Origin: a virus
Virus record (IMG/VR): IMGVR_UViG_3300009187_000049
Location: 1 to 33,604 of that record
Strand: one strand, 5' to 3'
Length of the DNA stretch: 33,604 nucleotides
Shown: positions 2,054-29,536 of the stretch, in pieces
Numbering within the stretch: position 1 is the first letter of the stretch
Layout of the letters: each line of letters begins with the position of its first letter
Notes under the pieces: generated by a model
Told to the model about the DNA's origin: nothing
The model's input: only the letters and a program-made list of their open reading frames with translations
Databases searched by the model: none
Translations under genes and position numbers: made by a program

Positions 2054-3091
2054 ATGGCTGAGAACGAAGTTACGCCAGTTGTTGAGCAGATCGTTGGCAC
2101 TGGCTCTGAGTCTGTCGATGACCGCATTGCTGCCGCAGCAATGGCCCTAGGAGACGATGAACAAGTTGCGCTCACTGAGCCTGCTCCAAGCTCCGAAGAT
2201 GCCAAAGAGGAGCAGTCAGAGCCAAAGGAAGGCCAAAGCCAAGACAAGGCCAAGGCCGCTGACGATGCGGACCAAAAGAAGCCCCGCAACATGCTTCGCG
2301 ATGTCGCTGCCGAGTGGGCGACCGCTCGCAGGATGCAGCAGGCGAACACTAAGCGAGCGCAAGAGCTTGAAGCGCGCCAGCAGCAAATCGAGCAAGAGGC
2401 TGCGACGGCTCGAGAGGTTGCTACGCTCATGCGTCACAACCCAATTGCGGCTGCGGAGCGCGTTGCGCAGCTCGCGGGCATTTCGCCGCATGAATACCTG
2501 CAACGACTCCAGCTTGCTTACATCAATGGCGAAGACCCGCAAAAGCCGCAGCAGGATGCAGCCATTGCAAACGAAGTGGCTCAGCTACGCGCCGAGCTTT
2601 ACGCAGAGCGAAATCGCAGAGAGCAGGAAGAACAGGCTCGAGCTTACCATCAGCAGGTTGAGCAAGTTACTGCAACGGAAACGCAGAACCTTGTCGGTCT
2701 TGCTAAGGCGTATGCCGATCAATTCCCGGCCCTTCAGCACTTGTCAGACGACGCTTTGACTCGGCGCGTTGCCGATGCTGTGCAATTCTATGTGCAGCGC
2801 GGCGACGAAGTTGGGCGCTTTGAGGTTTTGAGCGCTGTAAACAACATCGTAAATGACACTCTTGCAGAATACGGGCTAACTGATAGTCTGAGGCAACGGG
2901 TTGCCACCGCGCCCGCGCCTAACGGCGGTAAGCGGCAGGGGACAAACGCTGTACCCACAAGGCAGCGCAACGGCTCAGGCCGGTACATCCCAACGAATGC
3001 GGCAGCCGCCGAAGGTGGCGTCCCGCGACGAGCGATGACCGTAGAGGAGCGCTTGGCAGAGGCCACCAAAGTACTGTGGTCCGCTGACTGA
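2054..3091 (+). CDS. Scaffolding-like head assembly protein
   Basis: 345 residues. The N-terminal 80 residues are acidic and low in complexity (Glu, Asp, Ala, Lys). A long Gln/Glu/Ala/Arg-rich coiled coil follows, from roughly residue 90 to 200. The C-terminal 70 residues are basic and flexible (PNGGKRQGTNAVPTRQRNGS). Acidic N-terminus, coiled coil and basic coat-binding tail is the usual build of phage scaffolds, and the gene lies exactly between portal and major capsid genes. A scaffold would fill the procapsid, nucleate coat assembly and leave before packaging. AAAGGAACGAG precedes the ATG, 10 bp after the portal stop. No protease motif was seen. Confidence 0.72.
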   Translation: MAENEVTPVVEQIVGTGSESVDDRIAAAAMALGDDEQVALTEPAPSSEDAKEEQSEPKEGQSQDKAKAADDADQKKPRNMLRDVAAEWATARRMQQANTKRAQELEARQQQIEQEAATAREVATLMRHNPIAAAERVAQLAGISPHEYLQRLQLAYINGEDPQKPQQDAAIANEVAQLRAELYAERNRREQEEQARAYHQQVEQVTATETQNLVGLAKAYADQFPALQHLSDDALTRRVADAVQFYVQRGDEVGRFEVLSAVNNIVNDTLAEYGLTDSLRQRVATAPAPNGGKRQGTNAVPTRQRNGSGRYIPTNAAAAEGGVPRRAMTVEERLAEATKVLWSAD

Positions 3092-3137
3092 CTCTCGCGT
3101 CGTCACTCACAATCCTAATTAATTTTCGAGGTACACA

Positions 3138-4352
3138 ATGGCTTCTCTAAATATGTCTTCGTTCAGCTCCGCGCTGAAAATCCTTTATCCCGATTCGCTT
3201 GAGGAGGTTTGGTTTCCCGAAGCTCCGTTCCTTGCTTGGGTTCCGAAGTCCTACGACTTCGAAGGCGCGTCAAAGCAATCGAACGCGATGTTTTCGGGTA
3301 TCCGTGGCTCCACCGATTTCAGCACCGCGCTGAACGGCAAGAGCACTCCTTCGCTCGCGAAGTACAACGTGACGCGCAAGAAGGATTACGTCCTCGGCTC
3401 GATTGACAACGAGACGATGATGGCCTCGGCGTCGAACAAGGGTGCGATTGCCAAGGCGATCAAGACCCAGGTTGACGCGGCCGCTTACGAATTTGGCCGC
3501 TCGATGGCGGTGCAGGTTTGGGGCGATGGCTCGGGCATTCGAGGCGTTGTTGGTTCGGTTGCGGCTGGCCCCGTGGTAACCCTCACTGACCGTCGCGATT
3601 GCGTCAAATTCGAGGTCGGCATGGTCCTCGAAAACAAGAGCGCGGCGGGCGCAATCTACGTCGGTACGTTCCTTGTCACTGCAATCGACATCGACCTTGG
3701 CACCGTAACGCTCACCCTCCAGGGTGGCGCGGTTGCACCGGTTGCAACCGACCTCCTTGCTCGTCAGGGTGACTTCTTGGCCGGTGTTGGCGCCTCGAAC
3801 TGCATGAGCGGCGTGTTTGCTTGGATTCCGGTTGCGGCGCCATCGGCCACTCCGTTTTTCGGCGTTGACCGCTCCGTTAACCCGGTTCGCCTCGCCGGTG
3901 GTCGAGTCAAGGGTGGCGCGAAGACGATTGAGGAGGTCATCTTTGACAGCCTTGCTCGTGGCAAGACGAACGGCGGCAAGTTCGACACGGTTTGGATGAA
4001 CTCCGAGCGCGCTGCCGAGCTTCAGAAATCCATGCAGGCGAAGGCTTTCGTCGATGTTCAGAGCGCGGGCAAGGCCAAAGTTGGTTTCCAGGGATTCAAC
4101 CTTGTCACCAGCTCTGGCAACCTCACGGTCCTCGACGACCCGACGTGCCCTTACGCTTACGGCCTGCTCTCGAACCGTAGCGCTTGGGAGTTCGCCACGC
4201 TTGGCGATGCGCCGCACTTTGCCGAGGAGGATGGACGCCGGTTCCTTCGCGAAAGCGCGTCGGACGGTATCGAGTTCCGCCTTAAGATGTACGGTAACCT
4301 TATCTGCCAGCGCCCCGTTGACAACGTTGTCATCGACTTCGACGGCGTGTGA
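3138..4352 (+). CDS. Major capsid protein
   Basis: 404 residues. It is expected to form the icosahedral shell with the HK97 fold. The N-terminal half has the pattern of podovirus coat proteins: a short helix and loop (ALKILYPDSLEEVWFPEAPF), then charged strand segments (KYNVTRKKDYVLGSIDNETMMAS) and a long helix (AIKTQVDAAAYEFGRSMAVQVW). The C-terminal half has FDTVWMNSERAAELQKSM and a late LKMYGNLICQRPVDNV strand, typical of P-domain and A-domain elements. It is the best-expressed-looking gene here: its codons are strongly biased to C/G-ending Lys, Asn and Phe codons compared with neighbours. The upstream gap 3092-3137 is AT-rich (CCTAATTAATTTT) and ends in a CGAGG site, and could hold an extra promoter. 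Confidence 0.88.
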   Translation: MASLNMSSFSSALKILYPDSLEEVWFPEAPFLAWVPKSYDFEGASKQSNAMFSGIRGSTDFSTALNGKSTPSLAKYNVTRKKDYVLGSIDNETMMASASNKGAIAKAIKTQVDAAAYEFGRSMAVQVWGDGSGIRGVVGSVAAGPVVTLTDRRDCVKFEVGMVLENKSAAGAIYVGTFLVTAIDIDLGTVTLTLQGGAVAPVATDLLARQGDFLAGVGASNCMSGVFAWIPVAAPSATPFFGVDRSVNPVRLAGGRVKGGAKTIEEVIFDSLARGKTNGGKFDTVWMNSERAAELQKSMQAKAFVDVQSAGKAKVGFQGFNLVTSSGNLTVLDDPTCPYAYGLLSNRSAWEFATLGDAPHFAEEDGRRFLRESASDGIEFRLKMYGNLICQRPVDNVVIDFDGV

Positions 4353-4378
4353 TTCAGCTGTAATAGGAGAACAAGAAC

Positions 4379-4849
4379 ATGCCTATCAAGACTTCTACGG
4401 ACCTTATTAAGGCCCCCGCGCACGCACTCGGCTCACCCGACGACGTTGACTACGCGTTCCGTACTCGCGTTGTTCGCGTCAAGCTTCCGGTTGATGCCGC
4501 CGCAGCTACTCAGACTGAGCATTTGCTGGCGATTAGCGAGGTGCCGATCATCATCAACAGCATCGAAATTCTCCCGCAAGGAGCCGTTGCTGCTGATAAT
4601 ACCGACTATGCGACGATTGCGTTGCAAACTGGCAACCTTGCGGCTGGTGCACTCGCTACTGCTATCGTCAGCAAAGATACGCGTGCAGCTTCGCTAAATG
4701 GCTTGGCCGCGAATACCGTTGCTACGATTGGCAGCAATCTTACGGCTGCCGTAGCAGTCGATCAGCGCATTTCGCTCAACGTCACCAAAGCCGGTGCTGG
4801 CAAACAGCTCCCGGTGTTGTTGGTCGAGCTGACGTATCAGCTTGCGTGA
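4379..4849 (+). CDS. Small virion protein after the capsid gene, decoration-like
   Basis: 156 residues, rich in Ala, Thr, Val and Ile, with alternating hydrophobic residues that predict beta strands and no membrane segment (EVPIIINSIEILPQG; QRISLNVTKAGAGKQLPVL). A strong TAGGAGAACAAGAAC site precedes the ATG. Genes of this size and composition directly after the major capsid gene commonly encode head decoration, cement or fibre-base proteins. No family motif was recognised, so only the structural class is inferred. The next gene has a similar strand-rich makeup, and the two may form one layer of the virion. Confidence 0.55.
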   Translation: MPIKTSTDLIKAPAHALGSPDDVDYAFRTRVVRVKLPVDAAAATQTEHLLAISEVPIIINSIEILPQGAVAADNTDYATIALQTGNLAAGALATAIVSKDTRAASLNGLAANTVATIGSNLTAAVAVDQRISLNVTKAGAGKQLPVLLVELTYQLA

Positions 4850-22642: not shown

Positions 22643-22678
22643 AAAAAAAAGCAGGCCGCGTCATTCCACGCAGCCTGC
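22643..22678 (-). terminator. Rho-independent terminator of the SSB operon
   Basis: Arms GCAGGC and GCCTGC (22651-22656, 22673-22678), a C/A mismatch, GCGT and ACGC (22658-22661, 22668-22671), and a six-base loop CATTCC. On the minus strand the stem is followed by eight U residues (22650-22643). It lies 29 bp after the SSB stop and separates the recombination operon from the envelope operon, which has its own promoter immediately beyond. Confidence 0.88.
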
Positions 22679-22706
22679 CACCAGTCCAACCCGATGAAAG
22701 TTAAGC

Positions 22707-23102
22707 CTAAAACGGGATATCGTCGTTGTCAAATACTGAAAAATCAGGCTCAGCCTGGGTCGCAGGAGCGGCCTGCGCTTGTTCGCGTCGCTCGCCCTTC
22801 ACCAAATGCACGTCGCTGGCAGCGATTTCAGTCTTGTATCGTTTCTGTCCGTCTTTCTCCCAGCTCGATGTGCGGAGCGAGCCTTCAACGACGAGCTGAG
22901 AGCCTTTGGTCAGCAAGCGAGCCATGGCCTCGGCACGTTTGCCGAACATAACCACCGAGTGCCACTCGGTGTGATCGACCCATTGCTCTCCCTGCTTTTT
23001 CCGCTCCGACGTTGCGAGCGAGAATTTAAGGATTGAGGTGGCACCAGCCTGCTTAAGCTCAGGGTCTTTGCCGAGTCTCCCAAACAATGTAACGCGATTC
23101 AT
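22707..23102 (-). CDS. ssb: Single-stranded DNA-binding protein (SSB)
   Basis: 131 residues. The OB-fold begins MNRVTLFGRLGKDPELKQ, followed by LKFSLATSERKK, DHTEWHSVVMFGKRAEAMAR, KGSQLVVEGSLRTSSWEKDG, the standard sequence landmarks of bacterial and phage SSB. The C-terminal tail is flexible and ends DNDDIPF, the acidic peptide that recruits replication and recombination partners. It coats single-stranded DNA, here presumably exposed by the exonuclease encoded upstream in the same operon. The start overlaps the previous gene by four bases (ATGA). Confidence 0.95.
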   Translation of the reverse strand: MNRVTLFGRLGKDPELKQAGATSILKFSLATSERKKQGEQWVDHTEWHSVVMFGKRAEAMARLLTKGSQLVVEGSLRTSSWEKDGQKRYKTEIAASDVHLVKGERREQAQAAPATQAEPDFSVFDNDDIPF

Positions 23103-23362
23103 TTGTGTTTTGCTCGTCTAATGACTGAATTTTTAAACCCGTTTTGATTTTTCCCGCTGTAATTTGGCAGCGCTGCGGCATAACACTCGCCGCAGAAATC
23201 GTGTGCCCCGGCGCCTGAACCGTCGCGTAGACCACCGGCACAAATGAGCCAACCTTTAGCTTTTGCGTCAACGCGCAGCGTACGCGCCGCAACTCGGAGC
23301 TTTGAAGGTTCCGCAGAATTACGTCCACAAGCGTCACATTGGATAGTTGTCACGATACTCAA
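23099..23362 (-). CDS. Small Cys-containing (zinc-ribbon-like) protein
   Basis: 87 residues from a TTG start that overlaps the preceding stop (TTGA); GGTGGTG lies upstream. CDACG near residue 9 and FCGEC near residue 57 form two CxxC pairs, and between them lie basic strands (VAARTLRVDAKAKGW). This is the spacing of a small zinc ribbon. The C-terminus is basic (KNSVIRRAKHK). It lies between the exonuclease/annealing fusion and SSB, so a nucleic-acid-binding role in recombination or replication is plausible. The family was not named. Confidence 0.65.
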   Translation of the reverse strand: MSIVTTIQCDACGRNSAEPSKLRVAARTLRVDAKAKGWLICAGGLRDGSGAGAHDFCGECYAAALPNYSGKNQNGFKNSVIRRAKHK

Positions 23363-24780
23363 GATGCACCACCAAATTCTTCAGGCGAGTAAACGCCCGC
23401 CATGACCTCAGGCCAAACAAAGCGAGCAGCCTCTGCGATGCAACGATTGATCAGCATTTCTCGCGGGTACTTTGACCAATTCGGTCGAGACGCTAGGCCT
23501 GCTCGCTTCGCATCCTCAATGCCCCAGGTATAGATTTCCGGTTCCGTCCAGCCATGGCGCTGGACCTCGACCGTGGCGAGATCGTTGCTGCACTTAGATC
23601 GCACAACGCGGAACAGCTTGCAGCTTGGGTGCTCTAAGCAGCGCGCCATCATCGCTTGGGCGCTCATCGTAGGCTTTCCTTCGACGACGTGGAATGACCG
23701 CAACGCAGCCATGGCGCCAAGGCCAAACTCACGACCAGCCATAATGACCAGCATCGCAGCTTCCGGCGTTCCATAGGCGCTGAACATGCGCGAGCCAACG
23801 ACGACTTTGGCCAACCCGTATGCGCTGCGGCTGTCGGTAGGTTCGAGCTGTCGCGACCAGTCTTGCGGCGCTGCTACGAGGGCGCGTTGCTGCGGCTGGC
23901 TTGGCGGCGCAGGTGGAGGTTGCGGAATAGTGTCGGCAGCAGGCGGAACCTGCGGCGCTTCGTCAAATTCTGCTTCGAGTGTCATGGTTTCTTTCGTGTT
24001 CCTTGTGTTTCTTGGTTGTTTGATTGATTCGAGGAGCTGTTGCGCAATGCATTCCGATGCAAGCTCAGGTCGCAACGTCACAAGCTCCAATGCGAGAATG
24101 ATGTTGCATCCTGGGCGCGTAGCAGCCTCTTGCAGGGCCTTTCGTAGCGCAGGCGTAAAAGCCTCCGCATTGTCGCGCAAAGCGTCATAAACGCCAGCGA
24201 TGCTGCCGTAATCTGCAAGCAACGAGGTGGCTCGCTTAGGTCCAACGCCAGCCACTCCAGGAACGTTGTCCGACTTGTCTCCTGTGAGCGCCAGCCACTC
24301 GGCCACTTTGGACGGCTCGACGCCAAGCTCCGCTTTTACCATTGCCGCATCGACAACTTCGTTTCGGCCAAGGTGGTACATGGTGACGCCTGGCCCAAGC
24401 AACTGAAGAAGGTCCTTGTCCTGGCTTAGGATGACGCGCTCGCCGTCGATTGCAGCAACAAGCGAGGCGATTACGTCATCAGCTTCGTAGCTGTCGAGTT
24501 CCACCAGGACGAATCCATCATCGCGCAGCGCTTCGACGGTGCGGCGCATTTGCTCGAGGCTTAGCTCGTCCTTTGCGGGCCGGTTGGCCTTGTATTCAGG
24601 CCACTTGTCGCGGCGCCAGCTCTTGCGCGAATCTAGTGCGATGACGGTCGCCCCGTGTTGCGCGGCATGCTCGCGAATCTGGCCTAGCGTGCGTTGGGCA
24701 GCATAGCTAACGGCCTCGTCACCCGATGCGTGCCATTGGCGCCACCAGACGGCGCTAAAGTCTACGATCAGGGTGCTCAT
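23359..24780 (-). CDS. 5'-3' FLAP exonuclease fused to a candidate single-strand annealing protein
   Basis: 473 residues from the ATG at 24780 (ATGA overlap with the previous gene; an in-frame ATG 15 bases upstream is less likely). Residues 1-250 are a complete FEN/PolA-N type exonuclease: Asp7, ALDSRKSWR with Asp50, YKANR, Glu99-Asp101-Asp102, SQDKDLLQL with Asp121 and Asp123, and GDKSDNVPGVAGVGPKRA with Asp168 and Asp171. A linker of about 60 residues is rich in Pro, Gln and Ala. Residues about 318-473 (AAMLVIMAGREFGLGAMAAL, VVEGKPTMSAQAMM, WSKYPREMLINRCIAEAARF, GVYSPEEF) follow a pattern I recall from phage RecT-type annealing proteins, identified tentatively. An internal ATG at 23985 (Met266), preceded by AAGGA and GAAAG, could also give a separate 208-residue annealing protein. 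Confidence 0.8.
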   Translation of the reverse strand: MSTLIVDFSAVWWRQWHASGDEAVSYAAQRTLGQIREHAAQHGATVIALDSRKSWRRDKWPEYKANRPAKDELSLEQMRRTVEALRDDGFVLVELDSYEADDVIASLVAAIDGERVILSQDKDLLQLLGPGVTMYHLGRNEVVDAAMVKAELGVEPSKVAEWLALTGDKSDNVPGVAGVGPKRATSLLADYGSIAGVYDALRDNAEAFTPALRKALQEAATRPGCNIILALELVTLRPELASECIAQQLLESIKQPRNTRNTKETMTLEAEFDEAPQVPPAADTIPQPPPAPPSQPQQRALVAAPQDWSRQLEPTDSRSAYGLAKVVVGSRMFSAYGTPEAAMLVIMAGREFGLGAMAALRSFHVVEGKPTMSAQAMMARCLEHPSCKLFRVVRSKCSNDLATVEVQRHGWTEPEIYTWGIEDAKRAGLASRPNWSKYPREMLINRCIAEAARFVWPEVMAGVYSPEEFGGAS

Positions 24781-24983
24781 GGGTACGCGTGCCATTCTTG
24801 GTTGGTGGCAGGCGTTACACGCAGGCGCATAATGTCTACCTCGCCAAGGATGCGGGCAGCCTTGTTGCGAGCATCGTACCAGTGGCGCTCAATAACCTGG
24901 ATTAACACTATTTCCGCGTATCGAACGTCCCAGCAAATTGGCTGATGGTTTGGGTTGTTTGGTTCTTTTTCTTGATTTTTCAT
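24777..24983 (-). CDS. Small unknown protein upstream of the exonuclease
   Basis: 68 residues from the ATG at 24983, chosen because AGG lies suitably upstream and the previous stop is 5 bp away. Longer in-frame versions run back through the neighbouring gene in another frame. After a polar N-terminus (KNQEKEPNNPNHQP) it has a hydrophobic amphipathic helix (YAEIVLIQVIERHWYDARNK) and a short end. No motif recognised. Its stop overlaps the exonuclease ATG (ATGA), so it is probably co-translated with it. Confidence 0.6.
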   Translation of the reverse strand: MKNQEKEPNNPNHQPICWDVRYAEIVLIQVIERHWYDARNKAARILGEVDIMRLRVTPATNQEWHAYP

Positions 24984-25539: not shown

Positions 25540-25880
25540 TCTACGGAATCTGGCACGATGACGCCATGCTCGAGGAGCATAAGGACTTACATGGCGCCAT
25601 GAGACGCAGCAGGGAGTTGGCGCAAGAGCAGCAAAAATGGGTCGAAGTCCGAACGGAAGAAGGCGTCGTTTTGTCGGTCGCTGGTCCTGAGGAACGAGGA
25701 TCGACGCTGCACATGGCCAAAGCTCGCAGGCGCAACTTTGGCCTTCAGTCAGGCACCGAAATCGACACCAAAGTCGGCAGGCTTTGCCACGCCTGCGGCA
25801 GGCCAGGCACGAAACGAAAGCAAATGAGCGCAAAGAGCATCCGTTATTTTTGCGAGGTGCATGCCGATGGTACGCGTTGA
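25536..25880 (+). CDS. Small protein with C-terminal zinc-finger-like motif
   Basis: 114 residues with ATGA overlap to the HTH gene. The N-terminal 75 residues are mixed helix and strand (LHGAMRRSRELAQEQQKWVE, VRTEEGVVLSVAGPEERG). The end has CHACG near residue 84 and CEVH near residue 106 with basic residues between them (GTKRKQMSAKS), which would suit a CCCH-type zinc site and nucleic-acid binding. It lies between the regulator and the resolvase. No named family. Confidence 0.65.
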   Translation: MIYGIWHDDAMLEEHKDLHGAMRRSRELAQEQQKWVEVRTEEGVVLSVAGPEERGSTLHMAKARRRNFGLQSGTEIDTKVGRLCHACGRPGTKRKQMSAKSIRYFCEVHADGTR

Positions 25881-26220
25881 TCTTAGTTTGCAGACCAAGA
25901 GCGAGGCGAATATGCGCGAGCACTGGGCGACCAAGGCCCGGCGCGCAAAAATGCAACGCGGCGTTGTCACGATGGCACTGCGGCAGTACGTCGAGCAACT
26001 CGAAGCGCTTAGGGGCGCCGAGGTCATCGTGGCTACGCTGATTCGAGTGTCTCCCAGGCGGTTAGACGACGACAACCTGCGCGGAGCGTTAAAGGCTGTT
26101 CGCGATGCTATCGCAGCATGGGTTGGCATTGATGACGGAAGCGCCCGGTACGAGTGGCGCTACGAGCAGCGCAAAGGCCCGCTTGGCGTTCAGATTGAAA
26201 TTCACAACCTAAAGACTTGA
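25861..26220 (+). CDS. RusA-like Holliday junction resolvase
   Basis: 119 residues. The key motif is RRLDDDNLRGALKAVRDAIA (67-86) with Asp69-Asp71 and Asn72, then GIDDG with Asp91 and Asp92, the arrangement of metal-binding acids in RusA enzymes. These resolve crossover junctions made during phage recombination or replication. The start is ATG 25861, only three bases after GAGG; the ATG at 25867 is better spaced (9 bases), so the protein may be two residues shorter. It overlaps the previous gene by 20 bp. The stop TGA lies inside the -35 of the following promoter. Confidence 0.82.
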   Translation: MPMVRVDLSLQTKSEANMREHWATKARRAKMQRGVVTMALRQYVEQLEALRGAEVIVATLIRVSPRRLDDDNLRGALKAVRDAIAAWVGIDDGSARYEWRYEQRKGPLGVQIEIHNLKT

Positions 26221-28431: not shown

Positions 28432-28604
28432 ATTGGGGTGACTGGCTGCGCATATGGAACGCCCAAAAGCGCCAAGCCATAACGGAAGGCTGCGACCTTA
28501 AAGAGCTGCTTAGGCATGACTTTGAAGCCTTGGCGTGCATGCCAAGAATTGACCCATGGCCCGAAGGTCAACGGGCATGCGATAACCGAGGAGAGGTGAC
28601 GTGA
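28428..28604 (+). CDS. Small unknown protein
   Basis: 58 residues from the GTG at 28428, which overlaps the previous stop as GTGA and follows the good site CCAGGGGGAAGC. It starts NWGDWLRIWNAQKRQ, has an acidic helix and ends in a polar stretch (EGQRACDNRGEVT). It is shorter than 60 residues once the correct start is used. No family recognised. Its stop overlaps the next gene's start region. Confidence 0.6.
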   Translation: MNWGDWLRIWNAQKRQAITEGCDLKELLRHDFEALACMPRIDPWPEGQRACDNRGEVT

Positions 28605-29536
28605 TGCTTAAGATTCCAAGCGAACTGCAAGGCTTGCAGCTAATTGCCAGTGTGAGTGGCGGGAAAGACTCCACGGCGCTCATTTTGGCGCTTAAAGAAG
28701 CCGATTTACCGTTTCAGGCCGTGTTTGCCGATACAGGATGGGAAGCGCCAGAGACGTATGGTTACCTTGACACGTTGCGCGAACTGTTGTGCCCGATTGC
28801 GGTTGTAAATCCAAAGCGCGGCATGGTTGATGCCATTCGATACAATGTTGGGTTTCCAGGCCGAATGCAACGATGGTGCACGCGAGATTTAAAGATAGCT
28901 CCGCTAAGAAAGTACCATGACGCAATTGGAGCGGACACGGTAAGCGTTGTTGGTATTAGGGCTGACGAGTCTGAATCTCGTAGCAAAATGGCTGAGCTTG
29001 ATGACGATGAAAAGTGGGGCGGATGGATATGGAGGCCGTTGATTAGATGGTCGCTCGACGATGTGATTGCAATTCACCGTCGCCACAACGTTCCAATGAA
29101 CCCGCTTTACTATCAAGGCCACGAACGAGTCGGGTGCTACCCTTGCATTTTTTCTCGCAAAGAAGAAATACGCATGATTCCTGAATGGCGCATTGCTGAA
29201 ATTGAACAGCTTGAAACAGAAACAACAAACCTTAGAACAGAAAGAAACAAACAAGATCCTGGAAGGTACAAGCATGATGGAGCTTCGTTTTTTCGCACAA
29301 AAATACCCGGGAAAATAATTGGAATTAGAGAGGTTGTTGAATGGTCTAGAACCGCCAGGGGTGGTCGCCAACTCGACCTGTTGGCTGACCTTCCACAGGG
29401 AGGGTGCATGAGGTGGGGAATGTGCGAATCGCCAAGCAGGCAAACGTCGCGCGATGCGGGTGTTAGGGATGACGATTCGACCGAGGAGAGGTTGACGGAT
29501 GAACAAGAAGGAGAACAACGATGGGACCTGATGTGA
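28604..29536 (+). CDS. PAPS-reductase-like / PP-loop ATP pyrophosphatase family protein
   Basis: 310 residues from the ATG at 28604, preferred over the GTG at 28601 because GGAGAGG is then seven bases away. SGGKDSTA (18-25) is the PP-loop that binds ATP. FADTGWEAPETYGYLDTL, a QRWCTRDLKIAPL segment with Cys92, GIRADESESR (117-126), a WRPLIRWSLDDV stretch and RVGCYPC (Cys178, Cys181) are landmarks of the PAPS reductase/DndC superfamily. It could reduce a sulfonucleotide, act in nucleoside or DNA modification, or act on tRNA. There are no dnd-type or 7-deazaguanine neighbours, so the substrate is unknown. The C-terminal 60 residues are polar and seem extra. Confidence 0.8.
   Translation: MLKIPSELQGLQLIASVSGGKDSTALILALKEADLPFQAVFADTGWEAPETYGYLDTLRELLCPIAVVNPKRGMVDAIRYNVGFPGRMQRWCTRDLKIAPLRKYHDAIGADTVSVVGIRADESESRSKMAELDDDEKWGGWIWRPLIRWSLDDVIAIHRRHNVPMNPLYYQGHERVGCYPCIFSRKEEIRMIPEWRIAEIEQLETETTNLRTERNKQDPGRYKHDGASFFRTKIPGKIIGIREVVEWSRTARGGRQLDLLADLPQGGCMRWGMCESPSRQTSRDAGVRDDDSTEERLTDEQEGEQRWDLM

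Follow-up and report, generated by a model that had tools for sequence, protein, structure and literature searches.

A FEN-type 5'-3' exonuclease joined in one frame to a RecT/Redβ-type annealing core in a virus genome: a probable single-chain exonuclease–annealase pair

The DNA analyzed here, referred to below as the window, is a 33,604-base virus contig (IMG/VR record IMGVR_UViG_3300009187_000049). Among its genes are those for a portal, a major head protein, a terminase, an endolysin, a single-stranded DNA-binding protein (SSB), a RusA-like protein, a DnaC-like loader, a replication protein and a PAPS-reductase. We focused on a stretch in which the minus strand, read from 24780 to 23359, is a single open frame of 473 codons, while the plus strand is closed by many stops (Table 1). 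An earlier note made from the sequence had proposed that this frame encodes a nuclease fused to an annealing protein; its coordinates hold, and the strand, which it left unstated, is minus. The start at 24780 is supported by its overlap, as ATGA, with the stop of the upstream ORF; use of an alternative in-frame ATG at 24795 would make the protein 5 aa longer.

Table 1. Features of the fusion locus in the window, with domain boundaries given as residues of the fusion protein
Feature	Position	Strand	Remarks
Terminator-like hairpin, strong	22650..22679	-	12 bp stem and T run; after SSB gene
SSB gene, 131 aa	22707..23102	-	phrog_44 E 5e-42; downstream of fusion
ORF, 87 aa, Cys-containing	23099..23362	-	TTG start; 4-base overlap with fusion stop
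Fusion gene: FEN-type 5'-3' exonuclease, linker, RecT/Redβ-type annealing core	23359..24780	-	473 aa, 51.9 kDa
RecT/Redβ-type annealing core, residues 307-470	23371..23862	-	chain ends 3 residues later
Pro/Gln-rich linker, residues 246-306	23863..24045	-	length and sequence variable across family
In-frame ATG, codon 266, proposed internal start	23983..23985	-	begins at 23985
Shine-Dalgarno (SD)-like GAAAG (23991-23995) and AAGGA (24000-24004)	23991..24004	-	5 nt and 14 nt from ATG
5'-3' exonuclease/FEN domain, residues 4-245	24046..24771	-	PF02739 and PF01367
Upstream ORF, 118 aa	24777..25133	-	stop/start overlap ATGA with fusion

Downstream of the fusion, 4-base overlaps link the fusion gene, the 87-aa ORF and the SSB gene in series on the same strand, and the series runs into the terminator-like hairpin. 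The SSB gene is thus in the same apparent operon as the fusion, as had been suggested. The 87-aa ORF matched no family and is missing from one relative (L001; relatives are cited here by L numbers), in which the SSB gene overlaps the fusion stop directly. Elsewhere in the window, on the plus strand, a RusA-like Holliday-junction resolvase is encoded at 25861-26220 (phrog_34, E 4e-6) and could plausibly act downstream of the recombination module. A PAPS-reductase-family gene lies near the replication genes at 28601-29536 (plus strand; phrog_424, E 6e-50).

The N-terminal half of the protein matched both parts of a FEN-type 5'-3' exonuclease, PF02739 at E 1.8e-24 (86.7 bits, cut-off 34.3) and PF01367 at E 4.2e-18 (66.1 bits, cut-off 40), and both profiles were found at E <= 1e-3 in 33/33 family members. 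The metal ligands D7, D50, E99, D101, D102, D121, D123, D168 and D171 are kept in all 33 representatives (D7 in 32, one being truncated), and so are the arch residues Y63, K64 and R67. On the strength of these domain matches and conserved residues, the nuclease half is complete and probably active. Among proteins of solved structure, the closest to it are Xni and the exonuclease domains of Taq and Pol I, followed by T5 exonuclease. On the Burkholderia/Caballeronia replicons that gave the best plasmid exonuclease matches, no annealase is annotated next door (annotation there is incomplete), and these plasmid exonucleases look like stand-alone host nucleases.

For the C-terminal half, a profile search matched PHROG_561 (RecT-like ssDNA annealing protein) at E 3e-26, and PHROG_4171 matched the annealing core at E 3e-15. 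The Pfam RecT profile (PF03837) fell below its cut-off in the window protein (E 1e-4, 22.4 bits vs 24) and reached E 1e-3 in only 7/33 family members. A sequence profile search of the PDB ranked Redβ first, but only at E 0.44, and fold comparison was therefore used. AlphaFold2 modeled the annealing domain with a pLDDT of 87, and a Foldseek search of the PDB returned the lambda Redβ core (7ujl) at E 7.9e-5 as the sole match under 1e-3, the next being at 0.41. VIA-align likewise ranked Redβ first (Z 8.2), followed by phage A118 RecT (Z 6.2) and by RAD52 and Sak at about 5; below Z 6 this comparison cannot separate RecT from dsRBD-like folds, and only Redβ and RecT stood above the dsRBD rows. The structural match to Redβ is moderate (TM about 0.55-0.59 at Z 8.2), and a Z near 8 would be weak alone. 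The Redβ residues W143, K154 and R161 touch the template strand (PMC9512822). These residues align to W435, R446 (K to R, still basic) and R453 of the window protein, which are kept in 31/32, 32/32 and 32/32, respectively, of the family sequences that reach those positions. Profile, predicted fold and contact residues agree, and together they support assignment of this half as a RecT/Redβ-type core.

Between the two halves lies the Pro/Gln linker of about 60 residues that had been described from the sequence, and residues 261-306 of it are predicted to be disordered (pLDDT < 50). At a pTM of 0.58, the predicted structure does not fix the relative placement of the two domains. A short acidic motif, approximately D-I-[DE]-x-A-[ML]-P-[ST], recurs in the otherwise varying linkers of more distant members (e.g., L056, L064 and L067) and may be a binding motif.

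The same fusion, in one frame and with variable linkers, was found in 46 other IMG/VR contigs at identities down to about 35%. Seven close relatives, at 62-90% identity, carry it, and a scan with the nuclease half only returned 60 fused loci among the best 80. Among FEN-carrying relatives there was no split or frame-shifted version: where both halves were found, they were always in one frame. Recovery of the intact frame in 46 other contigs, from many metagenomes and down to ~35% identity, shows that the fusion is neither chance nor assembly error, and makes an artefact that joined two genes, including the sequencing error at the junction that the earlier note named as its own refuter, vanishingly improbable. 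The profile matches, the fold match, the active-site and DNA-contact residues and this conserved architecture all uphold the proposal that a full FEN nuclease and a RecT-type annealing domain share one frame.

Within the close clade, identity is higher in the annealing core (81-99%) than in the nuclease (47-89%). In a maximum-likelihood tree of annealing cores, 31/31 fused cores fell on one side of a branch (support 92/97), which is most simply explained by a single origin. One relative, L005 (L050:3226-4644), has a core 99% identical to that of L001 but a nuclease that is only 54% identical to that of L001 and 64-65% identical to those of L006 and L007; this mismatch indicates that the two halves have reassorted, presumably at or near the linker. 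Diverged members carry genes for a DNA helicase (phrog_62) and DNA methyltransferases downstream of the fusion (L081:5557-6867; L079:7307-9553), and in L079 helicase and methyltransferase form one 748-aa frame. No phage or plasmid record covered 80% of the fusion protein. Genome contigs were scanned twice for a prophage or cultured host: one scan gave no match, and in the other the matches listed were all to exonucleases, most of them of the Pol I type.

The fused and free-standing proteins differ sharply in what follows the annealing core: 1-7 residues in 31/31 fused proteins vs 79-208 in 24/24 free-standing relatives (one of the free-standing loci counted is truncated at its end). In Redβ, this region is the domain to which λ exonuclease and SSB bind, and a fragment of residues 1-177 is enough for in vitro annealing (PMC8303780, PMC5052646); when the C-terminal domain is removed, Redβ still anneals strands but no longer recombines DNA (PMC5052646). 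Judged by this comparison of sequences, the fused annealing cores have lost the C-terminal docking domain. The exonuclease content of the genomes differs as well. Each of the 11 fused records searched whole has exactly one FEN, the fused one. PF12705, PF09588 and phrog_298 were absent from all 11 (contigs that may be incomplete), and the phrog_69 exonuclease was absent from the nine fused records searched for it, where the same limit applies; the absence of PD-(D/E)XK/YqaJ exonucleases is defined by these four exonuclease profiles. By contrast, in the nearest free relatives (L095, L096, L097 and L098) the RecT gene adjoins a PD-(D/E)XK-type exonuclease gene, and no FEN was found in any of these four records. 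Tail lengths and exonuclease content thus indicate that the fused state goes together with a lost docking tail and a change of nuclease class. Among free RecT-like proteins, one encoded at 3953-4966 of L110 (Salinibacter phage 4_13) is annotated 'hypothetical protein' and belongs to a large Salinibacter phage group, in which 185 records have a match.

A phage exonuclease and its annealing protein are normally two separate proteins that cooperate. We propose, with a probability of roughly 75%, that the fusion is a single-chain form of such an exonuclease–annealase ('SynExo') pair, in which docking has been replaced by a covalent link. The N-terminal FEN-type nuclease would degrade 5' ends (or 5' flaps) and so expose the 3' strand, which the tethered RecT/Redβ core would coat and anneal to a complementary strand. 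The flexible linker to the nuclease would stand in for the missing docking domain, and the SSB and RusA encoded by the same phage would act alongside. Such a protein could serve the phage in recombination without RecA, in repair and in the formation of concatemers as its DNA replicates. Both activities, the mechanism that couples them and this biological role are what we infer from domain content and conservation. Besides the sub-threshold Pfam score, the moderate match to Redβ and the possible incompleteness of the records, two points weigh against the single-chain reading. Annealases work as many-subunit filaments, in which it could be awkward for each subunit to carry a nuclease, and the fusion protein has no visible substitute for the role of the Redβ C-terminal domain in SSB contact and recombination.

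The order of the two steps could also be the reverse. After the core has paired two strands, the FEN might mainly remove 5' flaps or RNA primers, rather than resect DNA beforehand. The setting could be the replication fork or the joints formed by single-strand annealing, and the fusion would position a flap nuclease right where flaps arise from annealing. FEN nucleases prefer flaps, and the fused nuclease is of the FEN/Pol I type with a conserved arch; moreover, the class that usually acts before annealing, the PD-(D/E)XK exonuclease, is the one that was replaced, and one relative pairs the same type of FEN with a Mgm101/Rad52-type annealase. However, T7 gp6 and T5 D15, which belong to the same FEN superfamily, degrade duplex 5' ends too, which makes resection equally possible for the fused enzyme. 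We therefore regard trimming as the main function as a serious possibility that falls short of being probable, and resection and trimming may both occur.

The relative with the other annealase is L231 (IMGVR_UViG_3300046740_000286), in which a single frame at 2995-4395 encodes a FEN, a linker and a C-terminal Mgm101/Rad52-type annealing domain. This domain matched Mgm101 (PF06420) at E 3e-28, over the cut-off, and Rad52 weakly; Mgm101/Rad52 is an annealase of mitochondrial repair. The L231 nuclease groups with the fusion nucleases and not with Pol I, with long branches beside it. A search of viral contigs for relatives of the Mgm101 tail found none beyond L231 itself, a single contig. Whether L231 arose by a swap of partners or by an independent fusion, it suggests that the joining of a FEN to an annealase has been selected for. 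A more speculative view is that these proteins form a separate class of recombinase: self-contained nuclease-annealases in which the FEN trims the 5' flaps of the protein's own joints and the annealing half, RecT-type or Mgm101/Rad52-type, is exchangeable, with the whole replacing the system of PD-(D/E)XK exonuclease and docking domain. We put this forward tentatively.

A further question is whether the gene gives one product or two. The earlier note had proposed that an internal start at the junction lets the gene produce a free annealing protein in addition to the fusion. The ATG at 23985 and the GAAAG and AAGGA upstream of it are present as described, and a start there could give a 208-aa product of 22.8 kDa. 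With this free annealase of about 23 kDa, nuclease-bearing subunits would be a minority in the filament, an attractive arrangement because annealase filaments are built from many subunits, for which one nuclease apiece may be undesirable. We examined start-codon conservation, compared anti-SD energy with that at other ATGs inside the gene, and applied two null models of synonymous shuffling. In the window, SD strength at the site exceeds that in synonymous shuffles (p 0.00-0.02). An in-frame ATG lies at the junction in 27/33 representatives, and in L065, L067, L057 and L084 it has a strong SD; there are 16 strong SD sites where 10.4 are expected, a count in which related, non-independent sequences enter repeatedly. 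Family-wide, however, the signal is weak. Summed SD strength does not differ significantly from synonymous shuffles (p about 0.17), 6/33 representatives have no junction ATG, and the site in L048/L049 is worse than random. Two close relatives have GTG where the window has ATG, and the codon is not kept as ATG in L005, L006 and others. The AAGGA is too far from the start for a standard site, and is absent in the nearest relative, L002/L047, which is 90% identical. The motifs of the proposed start are thus confirmed, but their conservation in the family is not: by this measure the internal start at 23985 is not a family trait, and a second product from this gene appears unlikely.

Less likely again is that the FEN is a replication nuclease for primer removal that became fused by chance to an annealing core serving as a mere DNA tether, without any part in recombination; the closest solved relatives, Xni and the Pol I exonuclease domains, and a genome with DnaC-like loader and replication protein genes and no other FEN would fit this, but the DNA-contact residues of the core are near-invariant, the core is the better conserved half, SSB and RusA accompany the fusion, and the window record has no other phrog_561-type annealase.

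Set against the defining features of SynExo pairs, the fusion protein brings together a 5'-3' exonuclease and an annealing protein, as both domains attest. It does not consist of separate polypeptides that dock through an annealase C-terminal domain, being one frame with a tail of 1-7 aa, and its nuclease is FEN-type rather than a PD-(D/E)XK or YqaJ exonuclease. Because these two defining features are missing, we place the single-chain fusion as a new variant that would work like a SynExo pair. Its parts belong to known families; what is new is the joining, in cis, of a FEN and a RecT core that lacks the tail. The literature searched, with most subscription journals outside its scope, held no description of a natural exonuclease-annealase fusion. 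One standing question about lambda Red and RecET is whether a phage exonuclease and annealase must touch, and at what stoichiometry. Here nature appears to have run the experiment, removing the domain for docking and attaching the nuclease instead. The fusion makes the loading hypothesis directly testable, and it is a potential single-gene tool for recombineering that may not need host-specific partner contacts.

Among known systems, lambda Red (Redα λ exonuclease and Redβ) resembles the fusion in combining a 5'-3' exonuclease with an annealing core of the Redβ superfamily and the Redβ 7ujl fold, and we count as a further likeness that SSB and Holliday-junction resolvase genes share the genome with the fusion. 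Lambda Red consists of two proteins that dock via the Redβ C-terminal domain (PMC5052646, PMC8303780), whereas the window protein is one chain, has no such domain and carries a FEN-type nuclease in place of a separate exonuclease. RecE/RecT and the phage RecT proteins with a PD-(D/E)XK neighbor (L095-L098; e.g., the RecE-like gp56 and RecT-like gp58 of Gordonia phage Twinkle) are the nearest free relatives of the core, but they are encoded by separate genes, have a C-terminal extension of 79-208 aa and pair with a PD-(D/E)XK nuclease, with no FEN. The L231 protein shares the FEN lineage, the linker, the C-terminal position of the annealing domain and the single frame, and differs in that its annealase is Mgm101/Rad52-type and not RecT. 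Finally, T7 gp6, T5 D15 and the FEN nucleases of Pol I and Xni have the same superfamily and active site as the fused nuclease. In T7, gp6 acts alongside gp2.5, an SSB that anneals strands. These FEN nucleases are free-standing or fused to a polymerase, whereas the FEN of the window is fused to an annealase.
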